Shown one piece after another: positions 9,801 to 60,121 of a stretch of 64,000 nt of DNA. Source of the DNA: Antedon mediterranea (taxonomy: Eukaryota > Echinodermata > Crinoidea > Comatulida > Antedonidae); NCBI RefSeq assembly GCF_964355755.1, contig NC_092679.1, positions 20,512,932-20,576,931 on the forward strand, read 5' to 3'. Position numbers and translations under genes: made by a program. Positions within the stretch are counted from its first letter, which is position 1. Each line of letters starts with the position of its first letter. The notes beneath the pieces were generated by a model. It ran no database searches and was not told the DNA's origin. It saw nothing but the letters and a program-made list of their open reading frames with translations.

Positions 9801-12800
9801 TAATTTTATAGCCGCCTGTGATCAGTGCCAACGGAAAGAAGTTTTAAAAAAAGCAAAAGTGCCACTTCAACCTATACCCGTAACAGATACTGCTTTCAGA
9901 CAGATCGGTATGGATATTGTTGGGCCTTTGGTAAAGACAGAAAATGGTAAGGTATCTCATGACAAATTACTGAAAAACAAAAATGCTGTGACTGGATAAA
10001 AAAGCTAAATCAAAACGTAAAAGTAAAAAGCAAGAAGACATGAATGAAATACGTTCAGAAAACTTTGTAATTCATTCTTCAGGGCCTAAAATTACAGTTA
10101 ATAATTAGTTCTGTTCGGCCTTTATTGTAATAGGGCTGAACTTAAATTTATTATTGTAAAGGCACAAGCGCAATTTCTGTGAGGTTTCTTGAAATTGTTA
10201 ACTAAACTAAAATTATGACAGTTCTCTTTTTTACACTGTCAACAAAAACTAGATTTACCAAGAATCAGATGCTCTTATTATTGTCACCGGATTTACATCG
10301 ATTATGGCTATACTGTAATAATTGGTTATCCGCAACGAAGTTGCAGGATAACCTCTTGTGATTGTACGAAATCATCATCAACATCAACTTTTTATTAGTT
10401 ATCCGCACTCAGCGGATAACTCCTTGTAACTGTCCTGTTTCATCATCTTTTTTTTTTTTCTGTATTATTCTTTCTTTCTGTCATTTTTGTGCAGAGCATA
10501 TCTCAAAAACGTGTAAAGTTAACATTTCATAACTTTGTCAACATATGGGTATTCACCTGAAGTTGTGCTTTTCTATTTTTGAATGACGTCAGAATTGCAC
10601 AACATGACTTACGCGCGTTTTAACGAATTTCGCGTATTTAACATACATCGAAAACCATATAACAATTTAAATTGAAACTTAACAAAAGTTTTAGTTATAT
10701 CTTGCGGTAACTGACTTTGTAAAAAAAATGGCATGTTTTACACAAAGTTACGCGCGCACGCGCGTTTAAAATTTCAAAACGCGAAAATTCAATTTCTAAT
10801 CAACTTTCTACGCGTTTCATGTCATTTTGACCAGGTAAAAAATTCCCACGCGTGCGCATTTTTTTACGCGCGCCGTGCGCACGTAGCGTTGAAAACAAAT
10901 TTTTTCACGTGATTTATGTTTTTCCAGCCTTTTGTAGTAATTTTACCAACTTTTAAACGATTTAGACTTAAAATTACGTCATACGGGCACGTCGAATTGG
11001 ATAATTTACGTGGGTTTTTGATGAAAAAGGTAAAAAATTCGTTAAAATTTGTCAAAATTATGCCTTTTTTTAATCAGTCGTAATTTCTAAACTGGACGGT
11101 CAACTTTTTGTGGATGACATATTCTTGAAGTTGATGAGGTGTAGATATCGGATCATGTAATAATATGGCTAACCGGACATTGTGACGTCATCGTATGGCC
11201 ACGCGAATATAAAATATAGGATTTTTGTATCTTTCATCATAGCGCATGACATTTAATAGAGCGCATCTCCAATTATCTGTTTTCCATTTTTACCCCGATT
11301 TTTATATTATCTAGGTCAATCAACTATCTTTCGTATGAGTTAAAAATATTTTAATTTTTATGACGTCATCATGTCTAAAAATGTAAATAACGTGGGTCAC
11401 TTATTTTCGTCTTTACAGTAAATTTCAATCTGTTATAGCTCGTCAGAATAAAACGTGATAATCATTATTAAAACGTTTTCTGGAAGCTATTGGATTGTAG
11501 ATACGAATTTATGTAAACATTTTGCCAATCGGATGTTGTGACGTCATCATATGACCAGTTAAATAAAAAAAGTCGTATTTTCATCTTTTGCGTCATAATT
11601 CATCACATTTAAAAGAGCGCGCATCAATATTTTACGTATTTAAATTTCTTCTACACATTAATATTTTGTTGCCGAGATAATTTCCTTCCGAAATTGCTAT
11701 CTTAGTATTTCATTTTGATACCGTCGCTATGTTAAAAATTGGATTAAATGGCGTGTCCAGTCATTTCACCTATTCTACACAGTATGTAATATGTATACAG
11801 ATTATATTGTATATATAATATGACACAAAATAACAGAATTCAGCAATAACAACATATCATATTCTTCAGATCAGGTCATATTGCCACAATCTTTTTCTGT
11901 GTGCAATATTCTAACGTATGACGTCTACGTGACCTTTGTCGTGCGGATAACTAACTCGTCAAAGTGACGAGTTACATGTCTAGTTGGTTATCCGCAACGA
12001 AGTTGCAGGATAACCTCTTGTGATTGTACGAAATCATTCTGTATGATTTTTGTGTAACGCTTTTCTCTAAAACTCGCAAACATAACATTTCGGTAACTAT
12101 CTTAACATATTGACATTTACGTAACGTCGTCAAGCGAAGCTTTTCATGACGTTTACAATTGCGCAACGTGACTTACGCGCGATTTAACGATTTTGTCGTA
12201 TTTAACATAGCTCGACAACCAAATAACATTTCAACTTGAAACTTTGCAAAAGTTTAATTTATATCATGCGCTAACTTTCTGTTGAAAAAAAATTCCGTGT
12301 TTTACACAAAGTTACGCGCGCACGCGCATTTAAAATTTCAAAATGCGCAAAACTAATTTCTAATCAACTTTCTACGCGTTTCATGTCGTTTTAAGCATGT
12401 CAAAAATTCCAACGCGTGCGCACATTTTTACGTGTGCGGTGCGCACGTAGCATTGAAAACGTATTTTTTTCGCGTGATTTATGTTTTACCAGCCTTTTCT
12501 AGTAATTTTACAAAATTTTAAACAATTTCGCCTTAAAGATACGTCATACGAGCACGTCGAATTGGACAATTTGCGCGCGTTTTTTATGAAAAGGTTAAAA
12601 AATTCGTTTAAAATATGCCTTTTTTTAAACAGTCGTACTTTCTAAACTAGACGGTCAAATTTTTGTGGATGACATATTCTAGAAGTAGATGAGTTGTAGA
12701 TGTCGGATCAGGTACTAATATGGCTAACCGGACATTGTGACGTCATCGTATGGCCACGCGAATATAAAATTTAGAATTTTTGTATCTTTCGTCATAGCTC

Positions 12801-15800
12801 ATCACATTGAATAGAGCGCATCTCTACTTATCCGTTTTCCATTTTCACCCCGATTTTAATATTGTCTAGGTCAATCAAGTATCTTTCGCATGAGTTAAAA
12901 ATATTTTAATTTTGTTGACGTCATCATGCCTAAAAATTTAAATCACGTGTGGCATTAATTTCATCTTTACAGTAAATTTTAATCTGTTATAGCTCGTAAG
13001 AATAAAATGTGATAATCACGATTAAAACTTTTTCTGGAAGCTATTGGATTGTAGATACAAAATTATGTAAAAATGTTGCCAATCGGATGTTGTGACGTCA
13101 TCATATGGCCAGTTAAATAAAAAAGGTCAATATTTTCATCTTTTGCGTCATAATTCATTACATTTAAAAGAGCGCGCATCAATATTTCACGTATTCAAAT
13201 TTCTTCTACACGCTAATACGTTGTTGCTGAGATAATTTCCTTTCGGAATTGCTACCTTCGCGTTTCATTTTAGAACCGTCAACATGTTAAAAATTGCAAT
13301 AAATAGCGGGTACCGTAATTTCACCTATTCTACACTGTATGTGATATGGATACAGATTATACTGTGTATACTATATATGAATTTAAATAATAAAATTCAG
13401 CAATAACAACATATCATATTCTTCAGTTCAGGTCATAATGCCAACGTGAACACTTCCTTTTGTCCTCAACCTATCCCCTTAATGTTAATGTTGCACCACT
13501 TGCGCGGCGGATAACCAAACTCGTCAAAGTGACGAGTTACATGTCTAGTTTCTCTTCTTTCTTTCTGTATGATTTTTGTGGAACGCTTTTCTCTAAAACT
13601 TGCAAACATAACATTTTGTAACTTTTTCAACATATTGTCATGCACATGAAGATGTGCAGCGAAGCTTTTCATGATGTTTAAAATTGCGCAACGTGACGTA
13701 CGCGCGATTTAACGATTTTGTCGTATTTAACATAGCTCGACAACCAAATAACATTTCAACTTGAAACTTTGCAAAAGTTTAATTTATATCATGCGCTAAC
13801 TTTCTGTTGAAAAAAAATTGCGTGTTTTACACAAAGTTACGCGCGCACGCGCATTAAAAATTTCAAAATGCGCAAAATTAATTTATAATCAACTTTCTAC
13901 GCGTTTCATGTCGTTTTAAGCATGTCAAAAATTCCCACGCGTGCGCACATTTTTACGTGTGCGGTGCGCACGTAGCATTGAAAACGTATTTTTTTCGCGT
14001 GATTTATATTTTTCCAGCCTTTTCTAGTAATTTTACCAAATTTTAAACAATTTCGAATTAAAGATACGTCATACGAGCACGTCGAATTTGACAATTTGCG
14101 CGCGTTTTTTATGAAAAGCTTAAAAAATTCGTTTAAAATATGCCTTTTTTTAAACAGTCGTAATTTCTAAACTAGACGGTCAACTTTTTGTGGATGACAT
14201 ATTCTGGAAGTAGATGAGTTGTAGATATCGGATCAGGTATTAATATGGCTAACCGGACATTGTGACGTCATCGTATGGCCACGCGAATATAAAATTTAGG
14301 ATTTTTGTATCTTTCGTCACAGCTTATCACATTGAATAGAGCGCATTTCCACTTATCCGTTTTCCATTTTCACCCCGATTTTGATATTGTCTAGGTCAAT
14401 CAACTATCTTTCGCATGAGTTAAAAATATTTTAATTTTTTTGACGTCATCATGCCTAAAAATTTAAATCACGTGTGGCATTAATTTCATCTTTACTGTAA
14501 ATTTTAATCTGTTATAGCTCGTAAGAATAAAATGTGATAATCACGATTAAAACTTTTTCTGGAAGCTATTGGTTTGTAGATACGAAATTATGTTAAAATT
14601 TTGCCAATCGGATGTTGTGACGTCATCATATGGCCAGTTAAATAAAAAAGGTCGTATTTTCATCTTTTGCGTCATAATTCATTACACTTAAAAGAGCGCG
14701 CATCAATATTTCACGTATTCAAATTTCTTCTACACGCTAATACGTTGTTGCTGAGATAATTTCTTTTCGGAATTGCTACCTTTGCGTTTCATTTTAAAAC
14801 CGTCAACATGTTAAAAACTGCAATAAATAGCGGGTCCCGTAATTTCACCTATTCTACACTGTATGTGATATGGATACAGATTATACTGTGTATACTATAT
14901 ATGAATTTAAATAATAAAATTCAGCAATAACAACATATCATATTCTTCAGTTCAGGTCATAATGCCAACGTGAACACTTCCTTTTGTCCTCAACCTATCC
15001 TCTTAATGTTAATGTTGCACCACTTGCGCGGCGGATAACCAAACTCGTCAAAGTGACGAGTTACATGTCTAGTCTTTATTTCTGCCTGTTTTAATTTGAT
15101 CCAAACCATGACTGGGGTAATACTGTTCAGCGCATAGAGGTTTTACAACATTAGGCGCTATGTAAATCCACGATATTATTATTGTTCTTGTTCTTATTAT
15201 ATTTATTGATATTAATATTGTTATTATTATTGTTATTTCATTCGTACAGTTCGGGTGTTGTACATCTCATCATGACATTTTGACACTACTATTATTACGG
15301 CTTATTATATTATTATTTGCTGTGTTTCAGGTAATCGGTACTTACTTGTATTTACGGAGTAGGCCTACCTTACCAAATGGGTGGAAGCTGATGCAATTCC
15401 AGATAAATCTGCTAAAACAGTGCTGAGATCTTTTATTGATTTTGTCTGCAGACATGGAACACCTTCTATATTGATTACAGACCAGGGTAGAGAGTTTTGT
15501 AATGAGCTGAATGACAGCTTCTGTAAGCTGATTGGGGTAGACCACATAGTTGCCTCACCATACCATCCTCAAACAGGCGGGCAAACGGAGCGCTTTAACA
15601 GAACACTTTGCACAATGCTTATGACGTTGACCAACGCAGACCAAAATGACTGGGATATACAACTCCCATACGTGTTGTTTGCCTACAGAACATCCGAGCA
15701 CAAGTCTACGAAATGTGACCCATTCTCATTAGTTTACGGTAGAAAGGCTGTGTTGCCTGTAGAATTACGTATTCCCATCGTTTCGTCTAATAAAGATGAC

Positions 15801-17432
15801 ATATCCGGAACTGTTCCTTTAAAAATAAGAGTGGACGCTTTTTTGAAACTCAAAGATTCAAGGAGAAAGGCATCAGAAAATATCAAAAAAGCACAGAAAA
15901 AGCAAAAACATTATCATTATGCTGGTGTTAAAAGCAACACGTACTATGCAGGAGATCAAGTGCTCTTGCAGAATTCCAGAAATTTGTCAAGAAAGGGAGG
16001 CAAACTTAATGCTCGATGGACTGGTCCATATATTATAGAAAAAGTCCTCACTCACAATACATATCGACTAAAAGGAAGAAGGGCTATTGTTAACGGAAAC
16101 AAGATCAGACATTACAAGTCCGATAAAACAACCTCTTTGAACTGTCCATCATCAAGCACTAAACAGAAATGTAATACCAATGATAAGCATCTCCCTCCAA
16201 AGAAACGAAAGCGAACGCCAGACATCCCACCTGAAGTAACGCACCATGATAACATACCTACATCCAAGAATGGTGATATCACACCGGATGATCACATTAT
16301 TAACATACCTACATCCAAGAATGTTGATGATAACGATAACAGACCTACATCCAAGAATTATGATATCACACCGGATGATCACATTAACATACCTACATCC
16401 AAGAACGATGATATCACACTGGATAATCACGATAACATACCTACATTAGACAATGATAATGTCGCACCGGATGATGACCATGACAACAGTAGGCCTGTAT
16501 CTGATAGTGATGTGGTATACCTCAACACGAAAACTTCAAGAAAGTTATTCTTTCCTGTCGATGCCAATTGGCAGCTTGAAAAGGCAGCACCATTTGGTAT
16601 CAATGTCAAAAATTTTCACAAAACTCACTTAAAATGTGAAATGGACAAGGCAGCCAGGCCTACTAAAGTTGTTAATATGAGAGGGGACGGCAACTGTCTT
16701 TTTAGGGCTTTGAGTTATATTCTCTTTGGTGTCCAGAACTACCATGTAGTTGTACGGGATTACATACTAAACTATATGTCCATGAACAAAAACCTATTTG
16801 AAAAAATTGAATCCAGATCATTTGAACGATACGTGGAAGACACGAGAATGGGGGAATATGGGACATGGGGTTCGGACATCGAAATCATGGCATTTGCGAC
16901 CATGTCAAATACGAATGTTTATGTTTACAGTAAATATGGAAGAAGGAAAGGGCTTCCACATTATGAATGGTTGAAATATGCACCAATAAGTAATCAGTTT
17001 GGTGATTTAGTATCTGAAAGAAACATCTACCTATCAAACTTATGTGCACACTTTGAGCCTGTCCTGGATGTAGACAAGAAAACTTATGACGCTGAATTAA
17101 AATACACTCGTACACCATACGCACCAATCAAAAACCACCTTGCACGGAAATACTGGGATATTGTATCCGATGTGACCCTCAATGCTGCTCTGGTAGATAA
17201 TTACGAAGATGAAGCGGTAATGCGTTCCGAAGGCATTATGGACGTTATATACGTATCTGAATTCACGGACACACATTATGACATTGAAGCAGTCAACCAT
17301 CTAAAAGATGATATCGATCCAAATATATTCAATTTGCTTTGTGACATGGAACATTTCCCGGAAAGGATTCATCAGAGCAACAATGAAGTACCTGGACAAT
17401 TATATGTTGATTCATACAACGTCACTCTTTAA
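6852..17432 (+). CDS. Ginger/Gypsy-type integrase fused to OTU cysteine protease (one nonsense codon)
   Basis: Three exons: 6852-7099, 9747-9946 and 15331-17432, with GT-AG introns and matching phases; 849 codons if the stop is ignored. Domain order: an HHCC integrase zinc knuckle (H70/H74 to C107/C110, split by intron 1); an rve DDE core with D139, D200 and E236 (D-35-E spacing); a GPY/F-like segment (RWTGPYIIEKV); a linker with repeated (P)TSKN-D-IT units; then an OTU protease with Cys605 in GDGNCLFRAL and His723 in CAHFEPV. There is no gag, protease or reverse transcriptase nearby. That fits a Ginger-type DNA transposon or a domesticated integrase better than an LTR element. An in-frame TAG (15360-15362) lies between E159 and Y162, so the copy may be dead unless the codon is spliced around or read through. 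The ATG at 6852 is the first in frame before the zinc knuckle. Confidence 0.75.
7100..8262. other. Intron 1 of the integrase-OTU gene, unique part
   Basis: AT-rich intron sequence with runs of AAGATATCTC-type words. No gene or recognisable element apart from the foldback copy that follows it. Confidence 0.5.
8263..9010. mobile_element. Foldback-family element, truncated second copy
   Basis: Shares with 4329-5312 the arm words CAGCTTATG, AACGAAAATTGC, CAGCTAATGT, AAATGTCTAAATC.TGTGCAAATGCAT, AGCTATCCATCTATCC and the degenerate GACCACCTCTCGTAAGCGACC array. The array runs to about 9010 and no right arm follows, so the copy is truncated. It lies inside intron 1 of the integrase-OTU gene. Confidence 0.6.
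9326..9372. repeat. Short inverted repeat in intron 1
   Basis: GGTACAAT-CAGGGAGAT / ATCTCCCTG-GTACAAT: an inverted repeat around CAGGGAGAT with the flanking GGTACAAT directly repeated. Possibly a transposon end or footprint. Confidence 0.4.
10322..11983 (+). mobile_element. Helentron-like non-autonomous element, unit A
   Basis: Starts TTGGTTATCCGC, with a 5' hairpin (GTTATCC-GCAAC-GAA-GTTGC-A-GGATAAC). It ends with GCGGATAAC, then the hairpin ACTCGTCA-AAG-TGACGAGT, TACATGT and a terminal CTAG at 11980-11983. The 5' end (GGTTATCCGC) is an inverted match to a subterminal 3' segment. This asymmetric terminal repeat plus a 3' hairpin is the signature of Helentron/Helitron2 elements. No Rep-helicase frame is present. 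Length 1662 bp, in intron 2 of the integrase gene. Confidence 0.65.
11984..13548 (+). mobile_element. Helentron-like non-autonomous element, unit B
   Basis: Starts directly after the CTAG of unit A with the same TTGGTTATCCGC end and hairpin. It closes with GCGGATAACC, the ACTCGTCA/TGACGAGT hairpin and CTAG (13545-13548). Length 1565 bp; about the same internal sequence as unit A, including repeated TGACGTCATC words. Head-to-tail with no spacer. Confidence 0.65.
13549..15072 (+). mobile_element. Helentron-like non-autonomous element, unit C (5' end lost)
   Basis: Begins inside the family consensus (TTTCTCTTCTTTC..) without the 5' terminal repeat and hairpin. It is otherwise very similar to unit B and ends with the same subterminal repeat, hairpin and CTAG (15069-15072). 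Length 1524 bp. Confidence 0.6.
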
Positions 17433-17546
17433 CTGTAGGCCTACCTATGACCGGTAATCTCAACATACACAGAAGCATTAAATGGTGAAAAGGGTATTTG
17501 TTTACCTTATAGAGGTAAGTTTCGTTAATGCTTTGATTTTTTACAG

Positions 17547-19405: not shown

Positions 19406-20670
19406 TTAATGTTTAAAGGATCTAAATTGTACATTTATGCCGGTAGGGGCAAGAGTGCCAAGCTTTACAATTATTCTTTCTTCTATAATTCTACGAGATG
19501 TCTCGGAACCATTACATACTTTAACACCAGAAATAGTAATATCCGAAAGGGAATGCTCATTATTTCAAAAATGGGTGGCTACAGGTAATCCGGGAGTCTT
19601 TAGTTTAATAGACCTTAAATGTTCTACAAACCTATCACCTAACCTGCGTTTAGTTTCACCAATATAAAGCATATTACATTTAGTACACGAAATACAATAA
19701 ACTAGATTTCTAGTGGTGCACGTAATACGATCTGTGATCACATAATTACCAGAAGGTCCTACTATTTGGTTTGAACATGAAACGTAATTACATGTCGAAC
19801 ATCTATTTCTATTACATTTGAATGTTCCAATTGATTCATTACCTTTGTTTTGTAATTTAGATTTAACTAAAGTGTCTTTAATGCTTTGATCACGTCTGTA
19901 AGCTATCATGGGTGGTTCTTGAAAAATATCTTTTGTAGCGGATTTATCTTCAGTCAAAATTGAAAAGTTATCGCGAACAATGTTAATAACCTTCTTATTC
20001 ATAGGATGATACGTGAGGACTAGAGGTATGCGGTCACAAGCATTTGTATTATGTGTAGGTTGCAATGTGTCCTCGTGCGTTAACTGGCAAACTTTTCTTA
20101 GAGATTTCACAGTAATGTCAGATGGATATTCGCGTGCATTGAAAAAATCGATCATCTCAGATGCTTTGATGTTAAAGTCATCATCATCGCTACATAAACG
20201 TCGAAGTCTAACAAGTTGCGAATACGGTATAGCATTCTTACAAGCTGGAGGATGCGAAGAGTTGTAATTTAGATAAGTGTGCGCGTCAGTATCTTTGTAG
20301 TGGACGGATGTAGAAAGACCAGGTTTATCAATAGATAAACTAATATCAAGGAAAGGCACACACTTGTCAGAAATTTCATGAGTAAACTTTATAGCAGGAT
20401 GAAAATTGTTCACAAAGTTAATGAACTCATTAAGTTCATCTAAAGTTCCCGACATAACACCAACACAATCATCAATATACCGTTTGAATAAATCTGGTTT
20501 CTTTCCCTTATAATCTCGTAACACATTCTGCTCAAAATACCCCATAAAGAGGCAAGCAAAGTTAGGTCCCATTTTTGTACCCATGCTTATCCCAGAAACT
20601 TGCCGAAAAAACTTTCCATTGAAGTTGAAGGCTGTAGTATTAAGTACAAGTTCAGCGAGACGTAGTATTG

Positions 20671-20674
<4 letters not shown>
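19406..20674 (-). pseudogene. Penelope-like RT plus GIY-YIG endonuclease (truncated, one stop)
   Basis: The C-terminal half of a Penelope polyprotein. The RT palm segment (SGISMGTKMGP) is followed by the catalytic YIDD box, a linker, then a GIY-YIG nuclease region (LVYCISC...LYIGETKRRLGDR) with a preceding Cys-rich stretch (CNRNRCSTCNYVSC). RT copies the RNA; the GIY-YIG domain nicks the target. The frame is interrupted by TGA at 19565-19567, just after PVATHF, and then runs in the same frame to TAA at 19406-19408. A single nonsense change therefore separates the last 52 or so codons. Apparent upstream codons beyond 20674 are translated TA microsatellite and not protein. Confidence 0.85.
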
Positions 20675-20738
<64 letters not shown>

Positions 20739-20795
20739 TTCCATATATATGTTCTATAGTTCAGTAACAAGTGTACATTATTGTAAATATAACAA

Positions 20796-20834
<39 letters not shown>

Positions 20835-20945
20835 CAGTAACAAGTGTACATTATTGTAAATATAACAAATACATATATATTATATATATATATATATGTA
20901 TATGTATTTGTTATATTTACAATAATGTACACTTGTTACTGAACT
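20675..20945. repeat. TA microsatellites with direct and inverted copies of a 45-bp unit
   Basis: A (TA)n tract (20676-20735) is followed by a unit reading AGTAACAAGTGTACATTATT. The unit is repeated directly at about 20763 and 20834 and inverted at 20897-20945, with TA runs between. The inverted arms can form a cruciform. The tract marks the truncated 5' border of the Penelope element. Confidence 0.75.
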
Positions 20946-21689
20946 ATGGAGAATTTTTTTTTTCCGAAATAAAAGAAGAATGAATGAATGAATTTATTTT
21001 CAATCTTTCTACATAACAACAAATATATAGTATAACAGGGGAGTAGCGGAAAAGCAAAAGTAAAGTAAATTTGAACCAGCCAAACATGTATGAAACATTA
21101 TCCAGTAAGCACATTTTATAAGAAGCTTTTGTTTATTAAAATGGGTTTCTCTGAAATTCCAGAAGTTTATTAAACATTGAAAATAACACAATCGCCTTTA
21201 AACAAAATGCTGTTCAAAAAAAGAATCGGTTGAAGCAAGCGTTCTTATAACATCCGATAAAATGAAGGTTCAATAAAGTAGCCCTATTAACAAATGTATG
21301 AGGTCTCAGGCCTATCCCATATTAATTATTTGTATAGATACATTAATTTTAAGATTCCAGATACCGAATTGTTGTTTTTTTACATAACAAGTCATTTTTT
21401 CTTTGAATATAAATTCTGATTTAAGGACAAAATACTAAAATAAATACTTACACCAAAGGTGCATAAAAACGTGTTGATGTGGCGCTATATCGATGTCATT
21501 ATCTTTGCATTCACCCTAGACGCACATAGTGTGACACCCCTACCATATTCTCGATGTGACGATCAATGTACCAATTAACATAATACTTCAGTAAAACTGA
21601 TTATGTTTTTTCAAGAGATCAGCTATATCGTGTTGATTATAAAAAGGTGCAACTTTTAATTGATTGGGGATTAAACAAGTAAACTATTT

Positions 21690-24600
21690 ATTCTTCTTGT
21701 CTTTACTCGTACAAAATAATATAACGGTCGCTAATTGGAAGTGTTTAAACTAAAGTGATCTATAATTGGAAGAGGACCCGTACAATTACTTGTTTTTTAT
21801 CACATGATTATAAACTATTTATTCTTCTTGTCTTAACTAGTATTTATTCTTCTTGTCTTTATTCATACAAAATAATATAACGGTCGCTAAATGGAAGTGT
21901 CTTAAAGTAAAGTGACCTTTAATTGGAAGAGGACCAGTACAATTACTTATTTTTTATCACATGATTAAAATCTATTTATTCTTCTTGTCTGTACTCATAC
22001 AAAATAATATAACGGTCGCTAATTGGAAGTGTCTTAAAGTAAAGTGATCTTTAATTGGAAGAGGACCAGTACAATTACTTGTTTTTTATCACATGATTAA
22101 AATCTATTTATTCTTCTTGTCTGTACTCATACAAAATAATATAACGGTCGCTAAATGGAAGTGTCTTAAAGTAAAGTGACCTTTGATCTTTCATTGGAAG
22201 AGGACCAGTACAATTACTTATTTTATATCACATGATTATAAACTATTTATGCTTCTTGTTTTTATTCATAAAAAATAATATAACGGTCGCTAATTGGAAG
22301 TGTTTTAAAGTAAAGTGATCTTTCATTGGAAGAGGACCAGTACAATTACTTGTTTTTTATCACATGAATAAAATCTATTTATTCTTCTTGTCTGTACTCA
22401 TACAAAATAATATAACGGTCGCTAAATGGAAGTGTCTTACAGTAAAGTGACCTTTAATTGGAAGAGGACCAGTACAATTACTTATTTTTTATCACATGAT
22501 TAAAATCTATTTATTCTTCTTGTCTGTACTCATACAAAATAATATAACGGTCGCTAATTGGAAGTGTCTTAAAGTAAAGTGATCTTTAATTGGAAGAGGA
22601 CCAGTACAATTACTTGTTTTTTATCACATGATTAAAATCTATTTATTCTTCTTGTCTGTACTCATACAAAATAATATAACGGTCGCTAAATGGAAGTGTC
22701 TTAAAGTAAAGTGATCTTTCATTGGAAGAGGACCAGTACAATTACTTGTTTTTTATCACATGATTAAAATCTATTTATTCTTCTAATTGTCTGTACTCAT
22801 ACAAAATAATATAACGGTCGCTAATTGGAGGTGTCTTACAGTAAAGTGACCTTTAATTGGAAGAGGACCAGTACAATTACTTATTTTATATCACATGATT
22901 ATAAACTATTTATGCTTCTTGTTTTTATTCATAAAAAATAATATAACGGTCGCTAATTGGAAGTGTCTTAAAGTAAAGTGATCTTTCATTGGAAGAGGAC
23001 CAGTACAATTACTTGTTTTTTATCACATGATTAAAATCTATTTATTCTTCTTGTCTGTACTCATACAAAATTATATAACGGTCGCTAATTGGAAGTGTCT
23101 TACAGTAAAGTGACCTTTAATTGGAAGAGTACCCGTACAATTACTTATTTTATATCACATGATTATAAACTATTTATTATTCTTGTCTTTATTCATACAA
23201 AATAATATAACGGTCGCTAAATGGAAGTGTCTTGAAGTAAAGTGACCTTTAATTGGAAGAGGACCAGTACAATTACTTATTTTTTATCACATGATTAAAA
23301 TCTATTTATTCTTCTTGTCTGTACTCATACAAAATAATATAACGGTCGCTAATTGGAAGTGTCTTAAAGTAAAGTGATCTTTAATTGGAAGAGGACCAGT
23401 ACAATTACTTGTTTTTTTATCACATGATTAAAATCTATTTATTCTTCTTGTCTGTACTCATACAAAATAATATAACGGTCGCTAAATGGAAGTGTCTTAA
23501 AGTAAAGTGATCTTTCATTGGAAGAGGACCAGTACAATTACTTGTTTTTTATTACATGATTAAAATCTATTTATTCTTCTAATTGTCTGTACTCATACAA
23601 AATAATATAACGGTCGCTAATTGGAAGTGTCTTAAAGTAAAGTGATCTTTAATTGGAAGAAGACCAGTACAATTACTTATTTTATATCACATGATTATAA
23701 ACTATTTATGCTTCATGTTTTTATTCATAAAAAATAATATAACGGTCGCTAATTGGAAGTGTCTTAAAGTAAAGTGATCTTTCATTGGAAGAGGACCGGT
23801 ACAATTACTTGTTTTTTATCACATGATTAAAATCTATTTATTCTTCTTGTCTGTACTCATACAAAATAATATAACGGTCGCTAATTGGAAGTGTCTTACA
23901 GTAAAGTGACCTTTAATTGGAAGAGGACCAGTACAATTACTTGTTTTTTATCACATGATTAAAATCTATTTATTCTTCTTGTCTGTACTCATACAAAATA
24001 ATATAACGGTCGCTAATTGGAAGTGTCTTACAGTAAAGTGACCTTTAATTGGAAGAGGACCAGTACAATTACTTGTTTTTTATCACATGATTAAAATCTA
24101 TTTATTCTTCTTGTCTGTACTCATACAAAACAATATAACGGTCGCTAATTGGAAGTGTCTTAAAGTAAAGTGATCTTTAATTGAAAGAGGACCAGTACAA
24201 TTACTTGTTTTTTTGTCATATGATTAAAATCTATTTATTATTCTTGCCTTTATTCATACAAAATAATATAACGGTCGCTAATTGGAAGTGTTTAAATTAA
24301 AGTGATCTTTAATTGGAAGAGGACCAGTACAATTACTTGTTTTTTATCACATGATTAAAATCTATTTATTCTTCTTGTTTCTATTCATACAAAACAATAA
24401 TAACGGTCGCTAATTGGAAGTGTTTAAATTTAAGTGATCTTTAATTGGAAGAGGACCAGTACAATTACTTGTTTTTTTATCACATGATTATAAACTATTT
24501 ATTATTCTTGTCTTTACTCATACAAAATAATAAAACGGTCGCTAATTGGAAGTGTTTAATTTTAAGTGATCTTTAATTGGAAGAGGACCAGTACAATTAC

Positions 24601-24840
24601 TTGTTTTTTGTCACATGATTAAAAACTATTATTACTCTTGTCTTTACTCATACAAAACAATAAAAATGGTCGCTAATTGGAAGTGTCTAAACTAAAGTGT
24701 TCTTTAATTGGAAGAGGACCAGTATAATTACTTGTTTTTATTACATGATTATTATTATATTGTTATTTATTCTTCTTGTCTTTATTCATACCAAATAATA
24801 TAATGGTCGCTAATTGGAGGTGTTTTAAGCCAAGTAATCT
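21690..24840 (+). repeat. Satellite array, about 132-bp unit, about 24 copies
   Basis: Head-to-tail units containing AACGGTCGCTAATTGGAAG, TAAAGTGATCTTTAATTGGA, AGAGGACCAGTACAATTACT and TTTATCACATGATTA. The distance between successive CGGTCGCTA words is 132 bp for most copies (21881, 22013, 22145) and slightly longer for others. Units alternate between sub-variants (CTAAATGG/CTAATTGG and GTGACC/GTGATC), which suggests a two-unit higher-order pattern. The edges are more diverged than the centre. Non-coding. Confidence 0.9.
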
Positions 24841-25014
24841 TTGAAAAATAAAAACTAGTTTGGCATTATTAACAAATAGTGGTCGTTAAAAAAAGACAAG
24901 TGCATGCGCAATCACGATCAAAACCTGAATCTCAAATCTCAACCACGGACGGTATTCAATCCAAGGGTCAGACATTATTAAACGCGCCGGACAGCATTAA
25001 ATTGTTGGAAAACG

Positions 25015-25505: not shown

Positions 25506-27332
25506 TCAAACGTTTGTCGTTTTAGAAACTTGTTCAGTTGTAGAAAACAGGCTTTCATCTCCCTCTACTACGTCGTCCGAATCTCCCTCTGATCGTCGAG
25601 GAGTGTTACCATTTGTATCTCTGGTTGGTACCGCCGAGTATTCTTCATATGTATCGTACTTATCATTCAACTCTTTCATCTGCTTCGCCTGCTTCTTCTT
25701 TGCGCGTCGCTTCCGGTTGATCGGTATCGAGGCGATAATCATTCCGATTCCGATAGAAACGGAAAATATGAGAACAAAAATCGGCATCCTAGCCATCAAA
25801 TCAGCCTCTGGCTGCTGGTACGATAGTTTTATCATGGCAATAGCAATAAGGTTGTTCTGAACGCCTGTTTCTATAGACACGGTTGCAGACGAATCTTGTG
25901 GAAGTTTTCCGACTTTTCGCGCCACCATGTAACCAGTGATGAAGCCGCATGTGGGTAACATAAGACTCCCTAGGAAGCAGTACCATGGGGAGTAGATAAC
26001 GTAGACATTGGAGTAAAGTCCGATAGATATCGTTAGAAGGATTAACGTTCCCGATAATACGTTTAACGATTTGATGCAGTAGAACGCAACCTTAGGAAAT
26101 TTATGCCGGATGAACATGCCAGTGAGGACCGGAATAGTCAACATGGACACTTGCACCATAATGTCTGCAAATGGAACGCCACCGCCTCCGCCGCCGCTAT
26201 CCTCATCGACAAAAGCACGGACGTATATAAACATGTTTAGCGGTAACATGCCCATAGCCAGGCAACTTGACACAAACGTCATAGTGACACTTTGTATGAG
26301 ATCAGCATCCACGAGAAGGGTGATCATGTTACTTAGGCCACCTCCGGGACACGAGCCCACCGTAACGAGCCCGACCGCCATCAGCGGGGTTAACTTCAAG
26401 AGCTTGGCGATGCAGAAAGCGTAGAACGGCTGACAAATGAACTGACATACTGGCCCTATTATGATAGGAAAAGGGTGTTTTAATTTATACTTTATGATAT
26501 CAAACTCCATTTTGCAACCCATTCCAGTAGTGGTAATAATCAGTAATGGTAACAATATATAATCAAAAATCTTGTCGATAACTCGTAAGTGACGAAGTGT
26601 TTTCACACGCAGACCCGGTGGTTGCTCGGCAGGACCGTGTGCGTAGATCTCCATGTGGGCAATGTTCACACGAACTCCGGTGATCTGGATTGTCACCGTC
26701 GTATTATCATCTTCCGATGAGGCTTCAATCAGAAACGATGAGTTACCGGCAATCAGAAAAGCTTCTTTGTTACCACTGTCTAATGCTATTTCCATGTGTC
26801 CTTTTAAACCAGTAACAGTCATGTTAACAGATAGTGTTTTCCCTTCCTCTATAAACAAAACATCAGGTTCAAATATTATTGCAAAATTTCCGTACTCGTT
26901 TTCTTCTTCCTTTCCACACGTACATACATGTGCATGTGGTATTGGTTCCATCTGAGTTGTCTGAACGGGAGTTGTCGTCTGGACGGAAGTCGTCTGAACG
27001 GCAGCAATAGAAGTTCGCTCAGTCAATATTGGCTTATTAGTCGTATTGCTGTACACAGCATACGGAGCCAGTGACGGCGCTGTGGTTGTTTTCTTTTTCT
27101 TTTTTCTATTCTTATCCTTGTTTTTTTTATTTTTCTTAGGCTTCTTTGTTTTGTCGATGGGAGCTGATGTATTGGCATTCGATATTGGATTGCTAACCAG
27201 AACATCAGGAAGAGCCTTTGATTCATCCAGTGCTGCGACGTCTCTGTCGCCTACATCTGGATCACTGTCAACCTGTGCCCCTACGTAAGCTACTACGCAC
27301 ATTGAGACGAGTAATACTATTGTGATCTTCAT
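25506..27332 (-). CDS. SLC10-family transporter with large extracellular N-domain (SLC10A3/A5-like)
   Basis: A single open frame of 608 codons starting at the ATG at 27332. A GTG 14 codons upstream is in frame but follows a splice-acceptor-like TTTTAG, so it is likely 5' UTR. Residues 1-20 are a signal peptide. Residues 60-82 are Lys-rich, 83-130 Thr-rich, and 150-245 form a beta-rich ectodomain with several Asn-glycosylation sites. From about 255 on, there are eight to ten membrane segments. Family motifs: GSCPGGGLSN (326-335) and ETGVQNNLIA (488-497), the sodium/substrate site regions of bile-acid:sodium symporters. The cytosolic tail (540-608) is basic, then acidic. The long N-domain matches the SLC10A3/A5 type, whose substrates are not well known, so bile-acid transport should not be assumed. 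The coding region has no introns. Confidence 0.88.
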   Translation of the reverse strand: MKITIVLLVSMCVVAYVGAQVDSDPDVGDRDVAALDESKALPDVLVSNPISNANTSAPIDKTKKPKKNKKNKDKNRKKKKKTTTAPSLAPYAVYSNTTNKPILTERTSIAAVQTTSVQTTTPVQTTQMEPIPHAHVCTCGKEEENEYGNFAIIFEPDVLFIEEGKTLSVNMTVTGLKGHMEIALDSGNKEAFLIAGNSSFLIEASSEDDNTTVTIQITGVRVNIAHMEIYAHGPAEQPPGLRVKTLRHLRVIDKIFDYILLPLLIITTTGMGCKMEFDIIKYKLKHPFPIIIGPVCQFICQPFYAFCIAKLLKLTPLMAVGLVTVGSCPGGGLSNMITLLVDADLIQSVTMTFVSSCLAMGMLPLNMFIYVRAFVDEDSGGGGGGVPFADIMVQVSMLTIPVLTGMFIRHKFPKVAFYCIKSLNVLSGTLILLTISIGLYSNVYVIYSPWYCFLGSLMLPTCGFITGYMVARKVGKLPQDSSATVSIETGVQNNLIAIAMIKLSYQQPEADLMARMPIFVLIFSVSIGIGMIIASIPINRKRRAKKKQAKQMKELNDKYDTYEEYSAVPTRDTNGNTPRRSEGDSDDVVEGDESLFSTTEQVSKTTNV

Positions 27333-27559
27333 TGTTGTTGTTTTGTTTAAATTCTGTTGAAGAGGTAATGTCACCTAAAAGAACAATCGATTTGAATCGT
27401 TTATTAGAAAAATGATTTGTAATTAACCATCACCATTTAACCACATCCCACCATACAAAACCTCTTTAGTACGGGGCGCAGTGGATTCTCGAAATACAAC
27501 AAATGCACCGCCGGCCCTTACTTTTTCCGTTTCACGGAACGGAAGACAGCGCCGTTCAA

Positions 27560-28750: not shown

Positions 28751-31070
28751 AATAGTTCATTCTTATATATATATATATCGCATATAAGTATTCTTAATTT
28801 TGAATAGTCCTATAAAAATATGAATTTAATTTATGTCTCACCATCCCCATTTTATTCTTGTAATTGTATTTATCGATTTAAAATAATTATAATACTCTAA
28901 TAACATTTTTTTTATAGTTTCTATAAGAATAAGTCAGCAACGTTCAGTGAATCATAAATTTAGTATTTCTTTATTACGAAAAACGAGTCTCTGAGGTTTA
29001 ATAAAGACTTGAATTATACATCATTTCTAATGTCTTAAGCAGTTGTTGAACATGATGGGAAAGGGATGACGTCATAAGAGACAAATTATACATTAATAAT
29101 ACTGTAAAACTATAAATTGTTACATTGGCGAGTGTAATGTTTATCAGGTGATGTACACCAATGTAGCGACAGAGGATAGTAAATGTTTAGTGAGCATCAG
29201 AATGTGTTTATAATGTACTCAACGGCGATCTTGATATTTGTACTTGTTTTTTTTAAATCAAATTAAAAATAAAAGTGAGGTGTTTTGTTGTAGAAACATT
29301 AACACGTGACAATGAATTGGTATGTTGATTGCAGTTGTTTATATTGATTATTGATTATATTGATTTCGGCAAGTTCAGACAAGTATCAATTTGGCGTAAG
29401 TAATTAGACATGAAACAAAACATAACTGATCTGATCTCATCATAATCGATGTTGTGAAACATTCATCAAACAATTTTTTACACTATTATTGGCATTATGA
29501 CATCATAATTTTTAATTCTATTTAGTGTTCTTAATCCATGCACGGAGGAAATATTCCTCCATGCTCCATGTATTGTAAAATAAACGAATATTAAAACACC
29601 AAAAATGACTGGCTTCGTATTGTTACAGACTAGCCCCGTACCAACTTAGTTTGATGCCATTTACTTTGTTTACCGGAGCACAGTCACACAGTTAAGAACG
29701 TCATTAGCCGAGTTTTACTTTTCGATACATTAAAACGTGATGTGTTCTAGAGGGAAACAATATTTACTAACTAATTATTTTACTAGTTAAAATGAATTAT
29801 TAATAAAACTAAACACATAAACTAGTCCAGATTTGAGAAAAATGAAATGCTGTACTCTTATTAGAGTAGAAATATGACTATCTGGACTAGTCTAACATGA
29901 GCGTTGGCTCTGCAGAAAAATTCGACCTACCTGAAATGATTTCTTTTGCGGTGAACTTGTCCTTAACGAGTCTTGGTTATATCGTCATGTTCCCTTCTAC
30001 ACCCATGCTAAGTAAACCCTAAAATAAACCCAACACTTTATCAATACGTGTATTATCTGGGGGTAACATATCATTATCGACAAAACGAACACTGATTGGC
30101 GGTTGAAATTGTTTGGGGTAAAGATCAAAATCTGAAAATCAATAGTAAAGTATAACGTTGTTTAAGTAAAGCTTTACTATCTTTTGCTAAACTAGATTAG
30201 GATGTTGGGAGATATCATCAATCATAGTGGTTACTGTTCCAGGACATCACCTCTGTTCAGTTTGTTTTGGTTTGACCACTGCGATGATGGTCAATATACT
30301 ATCTAATGAGGTTAATGGCATTAGAATATATATTTTGATATTAATATTGTTTTAATAAACGATACTACTGTATAGTGAACTCAACATGTTGTACTTCAAT
30401 ACTTTTAAAATAGTGAATGTAGGCCTACATACTGTAGGTACGACTGATGTATGTTGCTTGACTTTCTCCAAGTACACACATGCACCCTGATGAAGAAACA
30501 GTATTTTCTAAAGGATTGGCACTTTCTTGCTATCTGTTTTCTACTTCTAGTTGTCCCATGACCCAGAGGGTCGTAAGGGTGTAATAGATGAGATACAGTA
30601 CACAGTTTTACTCATCATGAATTGTACTCATCATGAGTTGTACTCATCATGATACGATACAAAGGCATGCGTAGCCACAGGCAAACCCTTTGATCTCCGT
30701 AGCTTAGAATCATGTTGTTAAGAGGATCCTTTTTGCTGGATGGCTGGCAGTCGTTTCTAGCTTTCTTCTTATTCTATTCATATCTGCATTGAAATCAAAC
30801 ATTTTCATTTTAGTAATCGATTGATACATAAACAACGTGATATTCTTTATTCTGTTTTAAATCAAAGGCATAAGCATGTTTATTATGTTGTAGAGTGCAT
30901 ACCAATGGCTAGGCATCAATTCAGACATAAAAACGTGAACCTTCTTGTCGATACTTCTGAAGAAAATGTATACTTTTTAAAAATAAACGAAATTGTATCT
31001 ATTAAACTAAGAATGATATTATTACAAGATAATCAATTCAATTCTGATTAATAAAAAAACAAGGCCATAT
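28751..31070. other. Intergenic stretch without supportable genes
   Basis: AT-rich sequence. Near 30485 a CTGATGAAGAAAC word recalls retroelement 3' ends but has no stem II. A 76-codon open frame (30821-31051) has no recognisable domain and AT-driven composition. Confidence 0.45.
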
Positions 31071-35841: not shown

Positions 35842-38800
35842 ATGGTGAATTCCTTACCATGCTTCTTAAAAGGCTTGACGGCTATCTCTGTGATTCTTCT
35901 TCTAATACAAGGAACAACTTGCGAAGAAATATTCACAAATAATTTTATTGTAGAAGTACATGATGATGTCACTTCCTCCCCAAAATCTATAGCGGAGGAC
36001 CATGGATTTTCTTATCATGGGAAGGTACGTACAATGACCATAATTATAATAGTAGTTATAGTAATAATTAAATTAAAAATGATGATTAAAATATGATAAT
36101 GATATTTATATTGTCATACAATTATGTTCTTTTAATCTTAACATCCTTTCTCTGTTAAAAATATTTGTTATTAATATTGTCATTTGTATTATCATCGTAA
36201 AAAGGAAATAAAAGACATTGTCATTGTCAAAATGAATAATACCCCCTTAATCCATTTAATTGTCATATCAACTAATTAAAAATATCACAGTAATGTCTTT
36301 CTTATTGTCCATCATTCCACATAAAATTGATACGCTCGGTCTATTTTTAATATTACAACTCTTTATTGCTATAATTTGTTCTAGGCTGTATATCCTATCA
36401 ACAATTATAGAAGGGACTTTTTTTAAATAATTTCTCCCACACGTCAATCAATTATGAATATTATTGTTTCATTTTCTTTATTTTTCTCGTGTCATCATCA
36501 TATTATATATACGCCCGCGCATTATTTTTGCTGCGCCTCTTCCTCATTATTTGATCAAATGACTGATATATGGTGAAGAGTGAAATAGAATTTTGATTAA
36601 ATTATGTTTATCTTTCCAAAATATATCCCGAATATTAAAAACTTCCTATAATTATTATACCTACATATAATTCACCTATCATAGGCTATCATATCTAACC
36701 ATATAAAATAGAACTGAATATTAATCTAATTGTTGTAAATCAATATTTATGTCAAAATTATTATTTTTGGCAGACGACAGTTACTGTTGGTGACGTCAAT
36801 TCTTCACTGAATGTAGTATTAGTTATTTAACATTAATAACTTCACTGAGGGATTTAGATTTGGAATTGGTTAAGTAAATCATCTTTCTTGTTAGTAAGCT
36901 GAATTTATCAATCTATAGCTTTCGATATTTCATCTTTATTTTTACCTGGTATTCAACGTTATTATTATTGAAATGTTGAAGGAAGTGTTTATTCTTATTA
37001 GGCAATCAATATCTTTCCTTATTTCCGTACTAAATATAGATAATTTAATTTTAACATCTAACCGGAGTGCTTCTTAGAACAGGTAGGCATGATTAAGCGT
37101 ATGCTGTTGAGACAGGTGGTAATTCTCCTTCCGCTGGAAAAACAATTCGAGTTTACCAATTCTAAAGTGGTCATTTTCCAGTAATATGGACTTGATATCC
37201 AGACTTCTAGGCCTACGTAAAACCCACATTAATGATATTAACAGATTTCTGTGTGTAGGCCTACAGTGACTCCCACTATTCTCGGTGTAACCATCTCCGC
37301 TATATAATATTTATATTTCAGTAAGTCCCACAAAAACACGTTGTGTATACAGCTTTTTAATATTTGATTATTCTTCTAATCCTAATAATGGAAAGTATAA
37401 TTTTATAAATATCCTGTATCCTGATTGTAGGAGGCCTATATGCTTAGACGACGAAACAGTAACGTTTCAATTCAATTGCCTTAAGAATAATATGTTTATT
37501 TAAACCATTTAAAGTGACCAATTGGCATTTCCAGAATTTTGGTCATAAATAATTAAATTAAGTCTAAACGAATCTATCTTTTGCGTTGTAATTTTTCAAT
37601 ACAATGAAATCCTTCACTTTGTCTCATGTTCAAAAATTATCAAAAATTAATTGATTGTTGAAATCACAATTTAGGGACGCAGTCTTAGCGCAACTGTAAC
37701 ATTGAATGTATCCGAAAACTATATACATACATCATAAATAAAGCGAATAATTATGCTATAATTGTTTTATTATAAATACTACCTGTTGTGTCCGGTATCA
37801 TTTTGGTCATCTTTTCACGCATGCGTATCTGCGGATCTTCTCTTCGGTCATCTTCTACAAAATTAAAAGTAAATACTGTAGGTTGTCATAGGATGCAAGA
37901 TGAAGTAGTTGTGTCTTTATACAAATTGAATTAATAAATCTGAATATAATAAAGCTGATTAACAAGGATGTATTTAAACGTGAATATTTATATCAGCGAT
38001 TTATTTATTTATTCAACAATATTTCAGCCAGCGTAAGCTGATTTTGAGAGAAAAACATTACAAGTAAAAAATATATTACAATAGTTAAAATTATTAAATG
38101 TATAAACGTAAATTGAAAGTCAAAAATGTAAATAATGAACTAATAATATTAGTTCATGTAACAGTTTGGTCAAGAAGGCTTTTTGCTTTGTGATACGATA
38201 CGTGGCCTATAGTTTTCGAAGAAGACAATGTCATTAGATGTACAATTATACATTAAGATGCCATATCAAATATGTTGAAATTAAATATAATATGAAATGA
38301 TAATCAAATCTTAACCTAACTCTTATATGAACTAATATTATAAAGACTACATCATCAGATGTACAATTATGCAGATCAGATCAAATTGGTTGAAATTAAA
38401 TATGATGTGAGATTATTACCAAATAACAGTACTTGGCAGAAAGCCTTATAACTTGACCCAACTCTTATATGAACCATGATATAAAGATGGTCGACGTAAT
38501 CAGGTGTCATTAACGTCAACGCATTGGATTTCAGCGTAAAGCGTGGTTCTCACTAGCGACGCAACGCAAGGACGTAACGCAACGCAAGTGAATTGACCAA
38601 TCACAAGCGATGGCTTATTCGCTTGTGATTGCTAACTGTCTTTAACTTCGCTTGTCATTGGTTAAAACGCTTGCGTTGCGTTTACGTCCTTGCGTTACGT
38701 TCTAGTGTGAACCAAGCGTAACTGTAAACCGCGTTTCATATCTTCCCTACATTAGGTGTACAGTAATCAAAGCGTTTAATTTTTTCCGACATCATCAGTA

Positions 38801-41800
38801 CCGAAGCGTTAAAGATGTATTGTCCCCCTGAAAAAATAATTCTTACAAAAATTTTTGTTGAATATGCCATTTAAATGTAACATAATAGTTATCCACTTTG
38901 ACCAACAATAAGATCGAAAAAAAGGAAATTACCTGAAAAAATGTAATTTGAAGCAAAAAATTGTCAAATTGGCTGCCAGCCAATGGATTTTTGGTTGAAT
39001 TTAACCATTTATTTGGTTATTTTGTGAAGTGAAAAACATTATTTTTTTTTCGTTTTTTTCTTCGGAAGTGATTAACTTTATTAAAACTACAAAATAACGT
39101 ATTCAAATTCTGATTTAATTAATCTTCATTTTTCATGTTTTTGGGGGAAAATACATTTTTAATCTATCTAAATGATAATAAATATATTTTTGAATTACGT
39201 CAATTAATAATATTTATATACCAAAGTTCTATGAATATTTTAAATAATTAAAATTGATGACAATTTATGATTGTTATAGTGTTTTGATTCTATAGTTATT
39301 ATATCCATTATTATCGACACTATACCTATTCCTCCCACTTTCTCACCACCATCACTCACGGAATAAATAATATATATAAAACAAAAACAAATCAGTAATC
39401 ATACAATAACAATTTAATTTCTTAATTATTCAAACAATTTTGATTTTTGCCAGAATATTTATAATGTTTCATCCAATTCCCATTATACAATACTTTTTAG
39501 ACACTAGAAGAAGCATTTTGCCATTTAGGAAAATACTTCTTTGAAGTCTATTTTCCACTCGGCAAATTTGTTCGCGCAAATTAAGAGCGGCTGCTTATAC
39601 GCATGCGTATTCATGTTTCCATCTTCAAAATCCCTCTCTGCGCATGTGCTTTCGATTCGGGCGAACAAATTCGCCTAATGGAAAATAGGCTTTAGGCCTA
39701 TAGCCCAATGATAATACGCACAATCCCACGTTGTGTGAAAGTCCATCCTCATGGCTTAGCAATGTGCGTCAGTTATTATGATAAATGAACGTGATTATGA
39801 CGGGTTAGTTATTGATTCCAAATTAGTAGTATTCCGAATATACATTTATCTCCCGGGATGTTGCGAAATGTCAACAACTGCTAGCGACTGTAAATGCTAT
39901 GATAATTAACACGATAATGATATCTATTTCAAATGCATTGTACGATAACATAATACCGTATACTAAAAATACCGTATTTAAAGGCGATGTGATACTTTTG
40001 AAGATATCGATGAACAGATAAAGATATTCTGTAGGCCTAATCGAGACAGTATAAGGAATAATAATTTATTTTTTGTTACAGAGAAAAAAGATACATCTTA
40101 AGCCTATGTTTTACTTGACGGATTTGTTCGCGCGAATCGAAAGCGGCATGTTATACGCATGCGTAGAGAGGGATTTGGAAGATGGGAACATGGATACGCA
40201 TGCGTATAAGCTGACGCTTTTAATTTTTCGGTTTTAGATAACATTAAAGTAACTGAAATTCAATATAAATCCAATTCATTATATCTATAATAAACAGGCC
40301 TATATCAAATAACGTTCAATAGCAGTGGAAAAAACAAATAGATGTGGAAAAAACAACTTTTCCACTTGTTTACATACATTTTAGGCAGACAAGATTCAAG
40401 AAATTGCATTGGTCCACTTTAAAATGGAAATTTGTTTTTCATCAAATTGCAAAAGGCAATGTTAAAATACTATTTATATATTTGTATTGTTGAACGATCT
40501 TTAGTTATAGTAAATTCATCAGGGAATTAGGGTTTGGTTCATCCGATTGTTTTTAATAATTTTACAATATGATTAATTTATGACCAAAATTGTAAAAGTG
40601 TATTTTTAATACTCATTATCTTGTAGCAGGCATATTAAAAAAATAAATCTAAAAATCAAATTACTCTTCAAGAAAGGTCATTTATCGAATTTATTTATTC
40701 TTAGGTCCTGAACAAAAGAAATGTATTCCACTTTACTCATAAAGATGTCCCTGTCAGTCGATCGAGACGCAGTGCTGACGTCATTGACCCTCTAGAAAAT
40801 CATCCACAGGTAAGTAGATGTAATAAATGAGGCAGAGGATTCACGCTAACATATTTCAATTTATTTGAAATATTTAATCTAGTAGATTAAATCTGAACTG
40901 ATTGAAGTCTTCGGAAGATTAACAAAAATATTGACAAATAAAGACAAACGATTTGAAATATTTAATCTAGTTGATTCAATCTCTATTGAAATGTAAATCC
41001 AAAAGATTAAAAAGAAAGATTGATACATTACAAATATATATCATTGTAATTTTTTATTTTTTTTGAAATTTAGATTTTCAATCGATTGGAAATATTTAGT
41101 TGATTCAATCTCAACTGAAATTGAAGCCCAAATTGTTAAAAAGAAAGATTGTTACATTACAAATACATTACAATTACAATATTTTCTTCTTTTTTGTTGT
41201 TGAAAATTTAGATTGTCAATCCATTGGAAATATTTAATCTGGTAGATTAAATAAAGCTGAAATTTAAGTCCAAAAGACTTTAAAAGAAAGATTTATACTT
41301 TACAATATCATTGTCATTTTTAAATTTTTCTTTCGAACAATATTCTGAACATTTATGCAACATTTTTGGCAGTCTTCCTCTTATTTTTTACTGGAATATT
41401 TGTGTTTCTATTAAGGTAAAACGAGTTGTACAATTGACTGGATTCAAACGTTCTAAACGAGGATTTCTTGATTTAAATGAAAGAAATGAACAAGCACCTT
41501 CCATTAAACCAAATCGGTCAACAAATCCAAAACAGAAATTTAACGATCCTCTATTTGATAAACAATGGTTTCTTGTAAGTATAACTGTTTTACCTTTTTA
41601 TCCCTCTAGTATAGTTTATTCTTTTGTACGTGAAAAGACGGATTTTCAAAAGATTGGTTTCGAGAAATACGTATTTTTTTTAAAGAATTGGTTTTATATT
41701 TATTGTATTTTTTGATGTCTTTTTTTAATCGTCTTTTTGATTTTTGTCTGAAACTCAAGTAATACACGTATGAAACGCCATATGTGCACAAATATAGCCC

Positions 41801-59267: not shown

Positions 59268-60121
59268 AGGGTGGGTTACTATTAGAAGGGGAGTTACTAT
59301 TAGAGTAGTGGGTTACTATTACTAATCTTAAATTAGGCACTCATAGCAAAATAATAAAACAGTATGAATAAACAAATTTGGTTGAACTCTAACTTCGTTT
59401 TATAAACTCAAAAACACTCAATCCTCCCCCACCCTCGAAATCAACATGCATTGTCGCCTTATTTTCTAAAAACGGCTGCTTCATAAGTTTTTGTGACTAA
59501 TAGTAACCCTCAAGGGGTGTTACTATTAGAAGAGGTGTTACTATTAGAAGGTGTGTTACTATTAGAAGGTGTGTTACTATTAGAAGGTGTGTTACTATTA
59601 GAAGGTGTGTTACTATTAGAAGGGGTGTTACTATTAGAAGGTGTGTTACTATTAGAAGGGGTGTTACTATTAGAAGGTGTGTTACTATTAGAAGGGGTGT
59701 TACTATTAGAAGGTGTGTTACTATTAGAAGGGGTGTTACTATTAGAAGGGGTGTTACTATTAGAAGGTGTGTTACTATTAGAAGGTGTGTTACTATTAGA
59801 AGGGGTGTTACTATTAGAAGGGGTGTTACTATTAGAAGGTGTGTTACTATTAGAAGGGGTGTTACTATTAGAAGGTGTGTTACTATTAGAAGGTGTGTTA
59901 CTATTAGAAGGGGTGTTACTATTAGAAGGTGTGTTACTATTAGAAGGGGTGTTACTATTAGAAGGGGTGTTAGTATTAGAAGGGGTGTTACTATTAGAAG
60001 GGGGTTACTATTAGAAGGGGTGTTACTATTAGAAGGGGTGTTACTATTAGAAGAGGTGTTACTATTAGAAGGTGTGTTACTATTAGAAGGGGTGTTACTA
60101 TTAGAAGGTGTGTTACTATTT
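59268..60121 (+). repeat. 18-bp minisatellite, about 33 copies
   Basis: The unit is GTGTTACTATTAGAAGGK. The main block is 59517-60121, with three degenerate forerunners at 59268-59315. Position 18 is G or T and alternates irregularly between copies. A few units carry AAGAGG or TTAGTA variants near the ends. Because 18 is a multiple of three, long frames appear on both strands (a Leu-Leu-Leu-Glu-Gly-Val repeat and others). These are not genes: there is no independent start context, domain or codon signal. Confidence 0.9.

Follow-up and report, generated by a model that had tools for sequence, protein, structure and literature searches.

Short TA-duplicating insertions in a crinoid genome: is the octamer TAGGCCTA an excision scar?

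In a 64-kb stretch of Antedon mediterranea DNA (hereafter the window, meaning the whole 64,000 nucleotides analysed), the integrase frame of a mobile element is interrupted by a stop codon lying within the octamer TAGGCCTA. What kind of event introduces such a word into a gene, and could the same event explain how frequent the word is elsewhere? The initial annotation of this DNA regarded the stop as the result of four bases, GGCC, inserted with duplication of a TA target, and suggested that, if this were general, the octamers would be microinsertions or excision footprints of a TA-targeting, Tc1/mariner-like process.

The integrase site and its paralogous copies

The octamer is located at 15360-15367, as seen from the sequence and from paralogue comparison (here, as for the other octamers and repeats described below, no strand is assigned). 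Across this site the frame of the downstream open reading frame (ORF) reads NRYLLVFTE-TAG-A-YLTKWVEA, so that the in-frame stop first described as VFTE-stop-A-YLTKW is indeed provided by TAGGCCTA, while NRYLLVFTE/YLTKWVEA without a break is the usual integrase motif. The extra six bases can be placed equivalently as TAGGCC (15360-15365), AGGCCT or GGCCTA (15362-15367), each placement amounting to a change from TA to TA-GGCC-TA. The gene broken by the insertion, identified from domain matches and from the copy at locus L002, belongs to a multicopy mobile element and encodes an integrase together with an OTU protease; its last coding part (15331-17432, + strand) includes a 683-aa ORF at 15381-17432 that matches an OTU protease domain (1.2e-10) and the integrase core rve (2.9e-05, below the Pfam cut-off). 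The L002 copy harbors an upstream exon with zinc-binding and integrase-start sequences, followed by an intron-like stretch, and the segment at 15073-15330 (+ strand) is, from this copy and from copy comparison, an upstream part of this element, probably intronic. The window copy begins at about 15070-15073, following a 1.5 kb tandem repeat, and other copies extend further upstream. Just beyond the stop codon of the integrase/OTU frame, the sequence contains another TAGGCCTA (17436-17443).

Several other features surround this element. The tandem repeat adjoining its truncated left end (10468-15073) consists of three 1.5 kb units that are 85-96% alike. Further along, an ORF at 19565-20932 (- strand) has an end resembling, by eye, the GIY-YIG endonuclease of a Penelope-like element (with no Pfam match at 0.001), a tandem satellite whose repeat unit measures about 132 bases occupies 21680-24844, a gene of the Sodium/bile acid symporter family (SBF, 3.3e-30) lies at 25506-27374 (- strand), and a tandem array of an 18-base unit, about 95% alike, is found at 59512-60124.

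A search of the genome (354 Mb, 18 contigs) with 351 bases around the integrase site gave 25 matches, 24 of them close and the last a 118-base fragment. Only two of the close copies are long enough to hold the six bases, both being 351 bases long and identical to the query; 19 others measure 345 bases, with 98% identity and a score that implies no difference besides the missing six bases, and the three more diverged ones (97, 97 and 95% identity) have lengths of 345, 342 and 340 bases. The six bases are far from common to all copies: of the eight that were read, just the window copy and L002 contain them; the six others have a single TA and lack exactly TAGGCC, in full agreement with the TA to TA-GGCC-TA event first proposed. 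The six bases are a derived insertion duplicating a TA: since the copies at 95-97% identity are also short, the empty TA represents the ancestral state. The two carriers have in common two further base differences from the other six copies read (alignment columns 548 and 919), which points to a single insertion in a common ancestor, inherited by both, and as they differ from each other by two bases only over about 2 kb, this insertion is recent. The opposite polarity, with six bases ancestrally present and since lost from the other copies, could invoke the presence/absence difference itself and nothing further, and is scarcely credible given that full length is seen in so few of the close copies, that the more diverged copies are likewise short, that the two carriers form a pair by their additional differences, and that the six bases interrupt a conserved integrase motif by a stop codon.

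TA-x-TA insertions in other repeats and octamer abundance

Does the same event recur outside the integrase element? A high-copy short repeat with thousands of copies, found by genome search and represented in the window at 38809-39163 (ends TTAAAGATGTATTGTCCCC...), was used as an insertion trap: copies were retrieved in which a 22-base stretch is lengthened by 4-18 bases, the insert word being left unspecified. The window copy has ends TTAAAGATGTATTGTCC, perhaps with a TTAA target, and the query that contains it gave 8,539 first-look candidates. Among the 18 matches obtained with the 22-base stretch, one shows a TA turned into TAGGCCTA, and several a TA turned into TACAGTA, TATAGTA, TACGGTA or TACCGTA; a second, longer stretch yielded a TAGGCTA, as well as another TACAGTA and another TACCGTA. 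The form TA-x-TA is thus prominent among the 4-18-base inserts of this repeat, with x being CAG (most often), TAG, CGG, CCG, GGC or GGCC. In the short-repeat copy L072, which is unrelated to the integrase, the filled site ACTTTAGGCCTATCAAAA can be set against the empty site ACTTTATTAAAA, and this pair is a clear case, at another TAGGCCTA position, of the empty and filled alternatives that the TA-duplication proposal called for. A further pair, at C1_1 5873, opposes TAGGCCTA to a paralogue without the octamer and is less clean, two additional bases being different.

All-against-all self-alignment of the sampled DNA, in which some loci had been picked for carrying insertions, gave ACAGT with a duplicated TA as the commonest 5-base indel. 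Once a tandem array is removed, the distinct sites amount to ten TACAGTA, four TACCGTA and three TAGGCCTA, one of the latter (C1_0) being ambiguous within a TAGGCC-rich cluster. Two pairs of loci carrying Tc1-type transposases, L089 versus L092 and L087 versus L091 (87 and 91% alike), had been picked for a reason other than insertions, and they also differ by several TACAGTA/TACCGTA scars. Together with the over-representation described below, the filled/empty pairs for TACAGTA/TACTGTA and TACGGTA/TACCGTA mean that cut-and-paste activity directed at TA sites has left its marks on this genome. These sites have the attributes of IS630-Tc1-mariner/pogo footprints, with a duplicated TA around the insert, a single TA at the empty site, and a constant insert of 2-4 bases (four for GGCC, three for CAG, CCG/CGG and GGC/GCC). 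One TA of the short repeat provides a deeper sample, with 2,238 empty copies and 29 matches to TA-NNN-TA within three mismatches: CAG in several backgrounds (some of them clearly a single subfamily), two each of CCG and CGG, and one each of GCC and TGG. At this same TA, the four matches to TA-NNNN-TA include CTAG and CATG and none is GGCC, so that GGCC insertions may be less frequent, or more selective in their sites, than the genome-wide count would imply.

That count is high. The strong over-representation first noticed in the window, where TAGGCCTA is found 30 times against 0.39 expected, holds across the 354 Mb: the word occurs 128,871 times, about once every 2.75 kb, and its reversed, non-complemented control 1,589 times. 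As the 30 fetched octamer loci are neighbours on one contig, rates are also given for a sample without loci chosen for the octamer, in which 191 kb contain 76 sites, or one per 2.5 kb. In the sampled DNA GGCC occurs between two TAs 220 times against 5.3 expected, and with other dinucleotide flanks mostly near expectation, the exception being GC..GC with ten counts; CAG is likewise mainly TA-flanked (208 against 50 expected), and TAGGCTA/TAGCCTA is in excess too (68 against 22). Genome-wide, TACAGTA occurs 314,802 times and its reversed word 119,155 times. Another palindrome, TGACGTCA, is also over-represented, with 18 occurrences against 0.7 expected in the window from position 2000 on.

The distribution of TAGGCCTA is uneven. 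Some sites are dispersed in the window sequence, at 39693-39700 and 53697-53704, and within a GTAGGCCTAC context at 30420-30427, 37256-37263 and 43909-43916. Others cluster strongly: ten of them are grouped at 688-1478 with TAGGCTA/TAGCCTA, CTAG words and TAGGGCCTA, in sequence that is G+C-richer than its surroundings, and C1 has similar clusters at around 5-9 kb and 33-37 kb. In sequence contexts that are unrelated, octamers also follow one another or CAG scars in chains, such as TAGGCTAGGCCTA or TACAGTAGGCCTA, and four of the first 100 sites on C1 directly adjoin TACAGTA on their left, which is more than we would expect from independent insertions. Among 63 isolated sites, a G before and a C after the word (GTAC) are preferred (0.34 against a background of 0.18). 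Words differing from TAGGCCTA by one base show an excess of about 33 sites compared with 74 for the exact word, a ratio of 0.44, whereas insertion and decay in long-standing equilibrium would give a ratio near or above 1; on the whole the sites therefore look young, unless exact copies are favoured. Among the papers listed by literature searches for TAGGCCTA and GTAGGCCTAC there were incidental mentions only, and no paper was found on genome-wide Tc1/mariner scar words.

Excision and its alternatives

CAG between duplicated TAs is the scar of an excised Tc1/mariner element with CAGT ends, and we consider it likely that the six bases in the integrase have a comparable origin, being the scar left when a TA-targeting cut-and-paste DNA transposon (IS630-Tc1-mariner/pogo-like) departed. 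Such an element would insert at a TA and duplicate it; on departure, staggered cuts would leave the donor with 3' overhangs made up of a few terminal bases of the element, and repair would join these overhangs as TA-x-TA. The source of TAGGCCTA would have the ends TA|GGC...GCC|TA, and two 3-base GGC overhangs, if shifted, could form two matched base pairs (GC with GC) and, once filled in, give GGCC. Paired over three bases with a central mismatch, the same overhangs would give GGC or GCC as a minor scar class, and this pairing model would account for the excess both of TAGGCCTA and of TAGGCTA/TAGCCTA. By the same rule, overhangs from CAG ends would pair at their outer bases around an A-A mismatch and give CAG or CTG, and CGG ends would give CGG or CCG; alternatively, two-base GG overhangs filled at both ends would also produce GGCC. 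At the integrase, a single event in one copy of the element would then have been passed to at least two copies, and the same process, about 125,000 times over, could have made TAGGCCTA the leading over-represented palindrome. The source transposon, probably with GGC...GCC ends, would have been active recently. A hAT or piggyBac excision product was rejected, as the duplication at the integrase site and at L072 is TA only, neither 8 bases nor TTAA.

Where is this source? The portion of this genome that was examined, about 0.3 Mb, yielded no element bounded by TAGG...CCTA or TAGGC...GCCTA, and the expectation of a TA-target transposon with GG..CC ends was to that extent disappointed. In the same sampled DNA, a search for terminal inverted repeats of TA-flanked elements starting with GG, GGC, CGG, CCG or CAG yielded only arms inside longer inverted repeats and one pogo-like element with CAG ends, about 480 bp long, in L052; the latter (2388-2867) is a miniature pogo/Tigger-like element, TA-flanked, with ends CAGTAGAACC. 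In the sampled DNA TAGGCC was not found to begin any longer repeat: in 192 of 275 cases the next two bases are TA, with varied sequence after them. Nor were there convincing repeat boundaries at TA-GGC. DDE/D transposase genes of the superfamily are present in the genome, with 47 matches to the pogo-type DDE_1, some of them long and open genes, and eight to the Tc1-type DDE_3. No clear terminal repeats were detected at the DDE_3 loci, and since L087/L091 and L089/L092 are alike over nearly their whole length (about 3.2-3.3 kb), the ends of these elements are not seen. The mariner transposase PF01359 (Transposase_1) had no genome match, which is not informative as the control was silent too. 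Of the Tc1/mariner-like origin first suggested for TAGGCCTA, the recurrent TA-duplicating insertions and the accompanying Tc1/mariner-type scars have been borne out, and the excision step itself is inferred. The missing donor, the lack of GGCC at the deeply sampled TA, the clustering and chaining, and the presence of only eight DDE_3 matches all count against excision, as does the GTAC flank preference, which contrasts with the AT-rich targets that many Tc1-like elements usually have.

Would a mechanism that never involved a larger transposon fit better? An enzyme adding GGCC (or TAGGCC) directly at a TA with TA duplication would agree with the donorless 0.3 Mb, with an insert that is constant and very short, and with the empty and +6 alleles being the only ones seen at the integrase site. 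We nevertheless regard it as rather unlikely, because the same repeats also hold CAG, CCG/CGG and GGC inserts in the TA-x-TA arrangement, one of them being a known Tc1/mariner scar, and we know of no enzyme that inserts a fixed tetranucleotide at TA. It is improbable, too, that TAGGCCTA is a functional word (a binding site, or a methylation or repair target, as considered for HIP1) maintained through selection or biased repair, with the insertion in the integrase an incidental case. The 128,871 copies speak for this, and the scarcity of one-mismatch neighbours for a long steady decay could also result from upkeep; against it, the octamer arises by insertion in dispensable mobile-element DNA, which makes selection for it unlikely, its requirement for TA flanks is the same as that of CAG scars, and its composites occur in unrelated contexts. 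Replication slippage of a TAGGCC hexamer repeat is suggested by the common TAGGCCTAGGCCTA doublets (about ten of the first 100 sites, and four sites in the sample), and may add to the clusters, but it is refuted for the integrase site, where the empty allele has no TAGGCC to slip from, as is also true of the empty copy for L072; as a general source of the octamer it is very improbable. The departure of a TA-targeting transposon is the likeliest account of the integrase insertion. The broader proposition that a new lineage of TA-targeting transposons with GGC ends has inserted and excised so frequently that the resulting scars rank among the most over-represented words of the genome is more tentative, and perhaps somewhat short of an even chance; if it is true, the CAG, CGG and GGC scars would be a fossil record of transposition whose donors are mostly gone.

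Consequences and known systems

Excision scars are normally treated as rare curiosities. If the excision reading is right, they would represent a major mutational force in this genome, in which about one TA in 260 would carry TAGGCCTA (estimated from about 0.093 TA per base), and would insert stop codons (TAG) as well as frame-preserving or frame-shifting bases. The scar words would also give the terminal bases of their source transposons, so that activity might be dated even for vanished families, and a striking palindromic word would be explained without selection.

Among known systems, Sleeping Beauty leaves three-base 3' overhangs on the donor DNA, and its footprint corresponds to the overhang (PMC7827188). 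Its footprints and those of other Tc1/mariner elements (TACAGTA/TACTGTA) resemble the sites described here in the duplicated TA, in the 2-4 bases between, and in a word fixed by the element ends, and the CAG/CTG class is found here as filled/empty pairs; in contrast, the main word here is the 4-base palindrome GGCC, one site per about 2.75 kb, and its donor was not encountered. The pogo-like element Passer is reported to leave footprints of 0-4 bases (PMC9976928), a size range that includes the present inserts, and pogo-type DDE_1 genes are present in this genome; unlike what the source of TAGGCCTA would require, no pogo-like element seen here ends in GGC, the miniature L052 element ending in CAG. 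Excision footprints of plant Stowaway/MITE elements (PMC1925063) are similarly small scars of TA-targeting elements, differing in sequence and scale. Finally, HIP1, the highly iterated palindrome GCGATCGC of cyanobacteria, is an octamer over-represented across the genome (PMC4390886), as TAGGCCTA is here; whereas HIP1 is discussed in connection with DNA methyltransferases, the crinoid word arises by insertion at TA.
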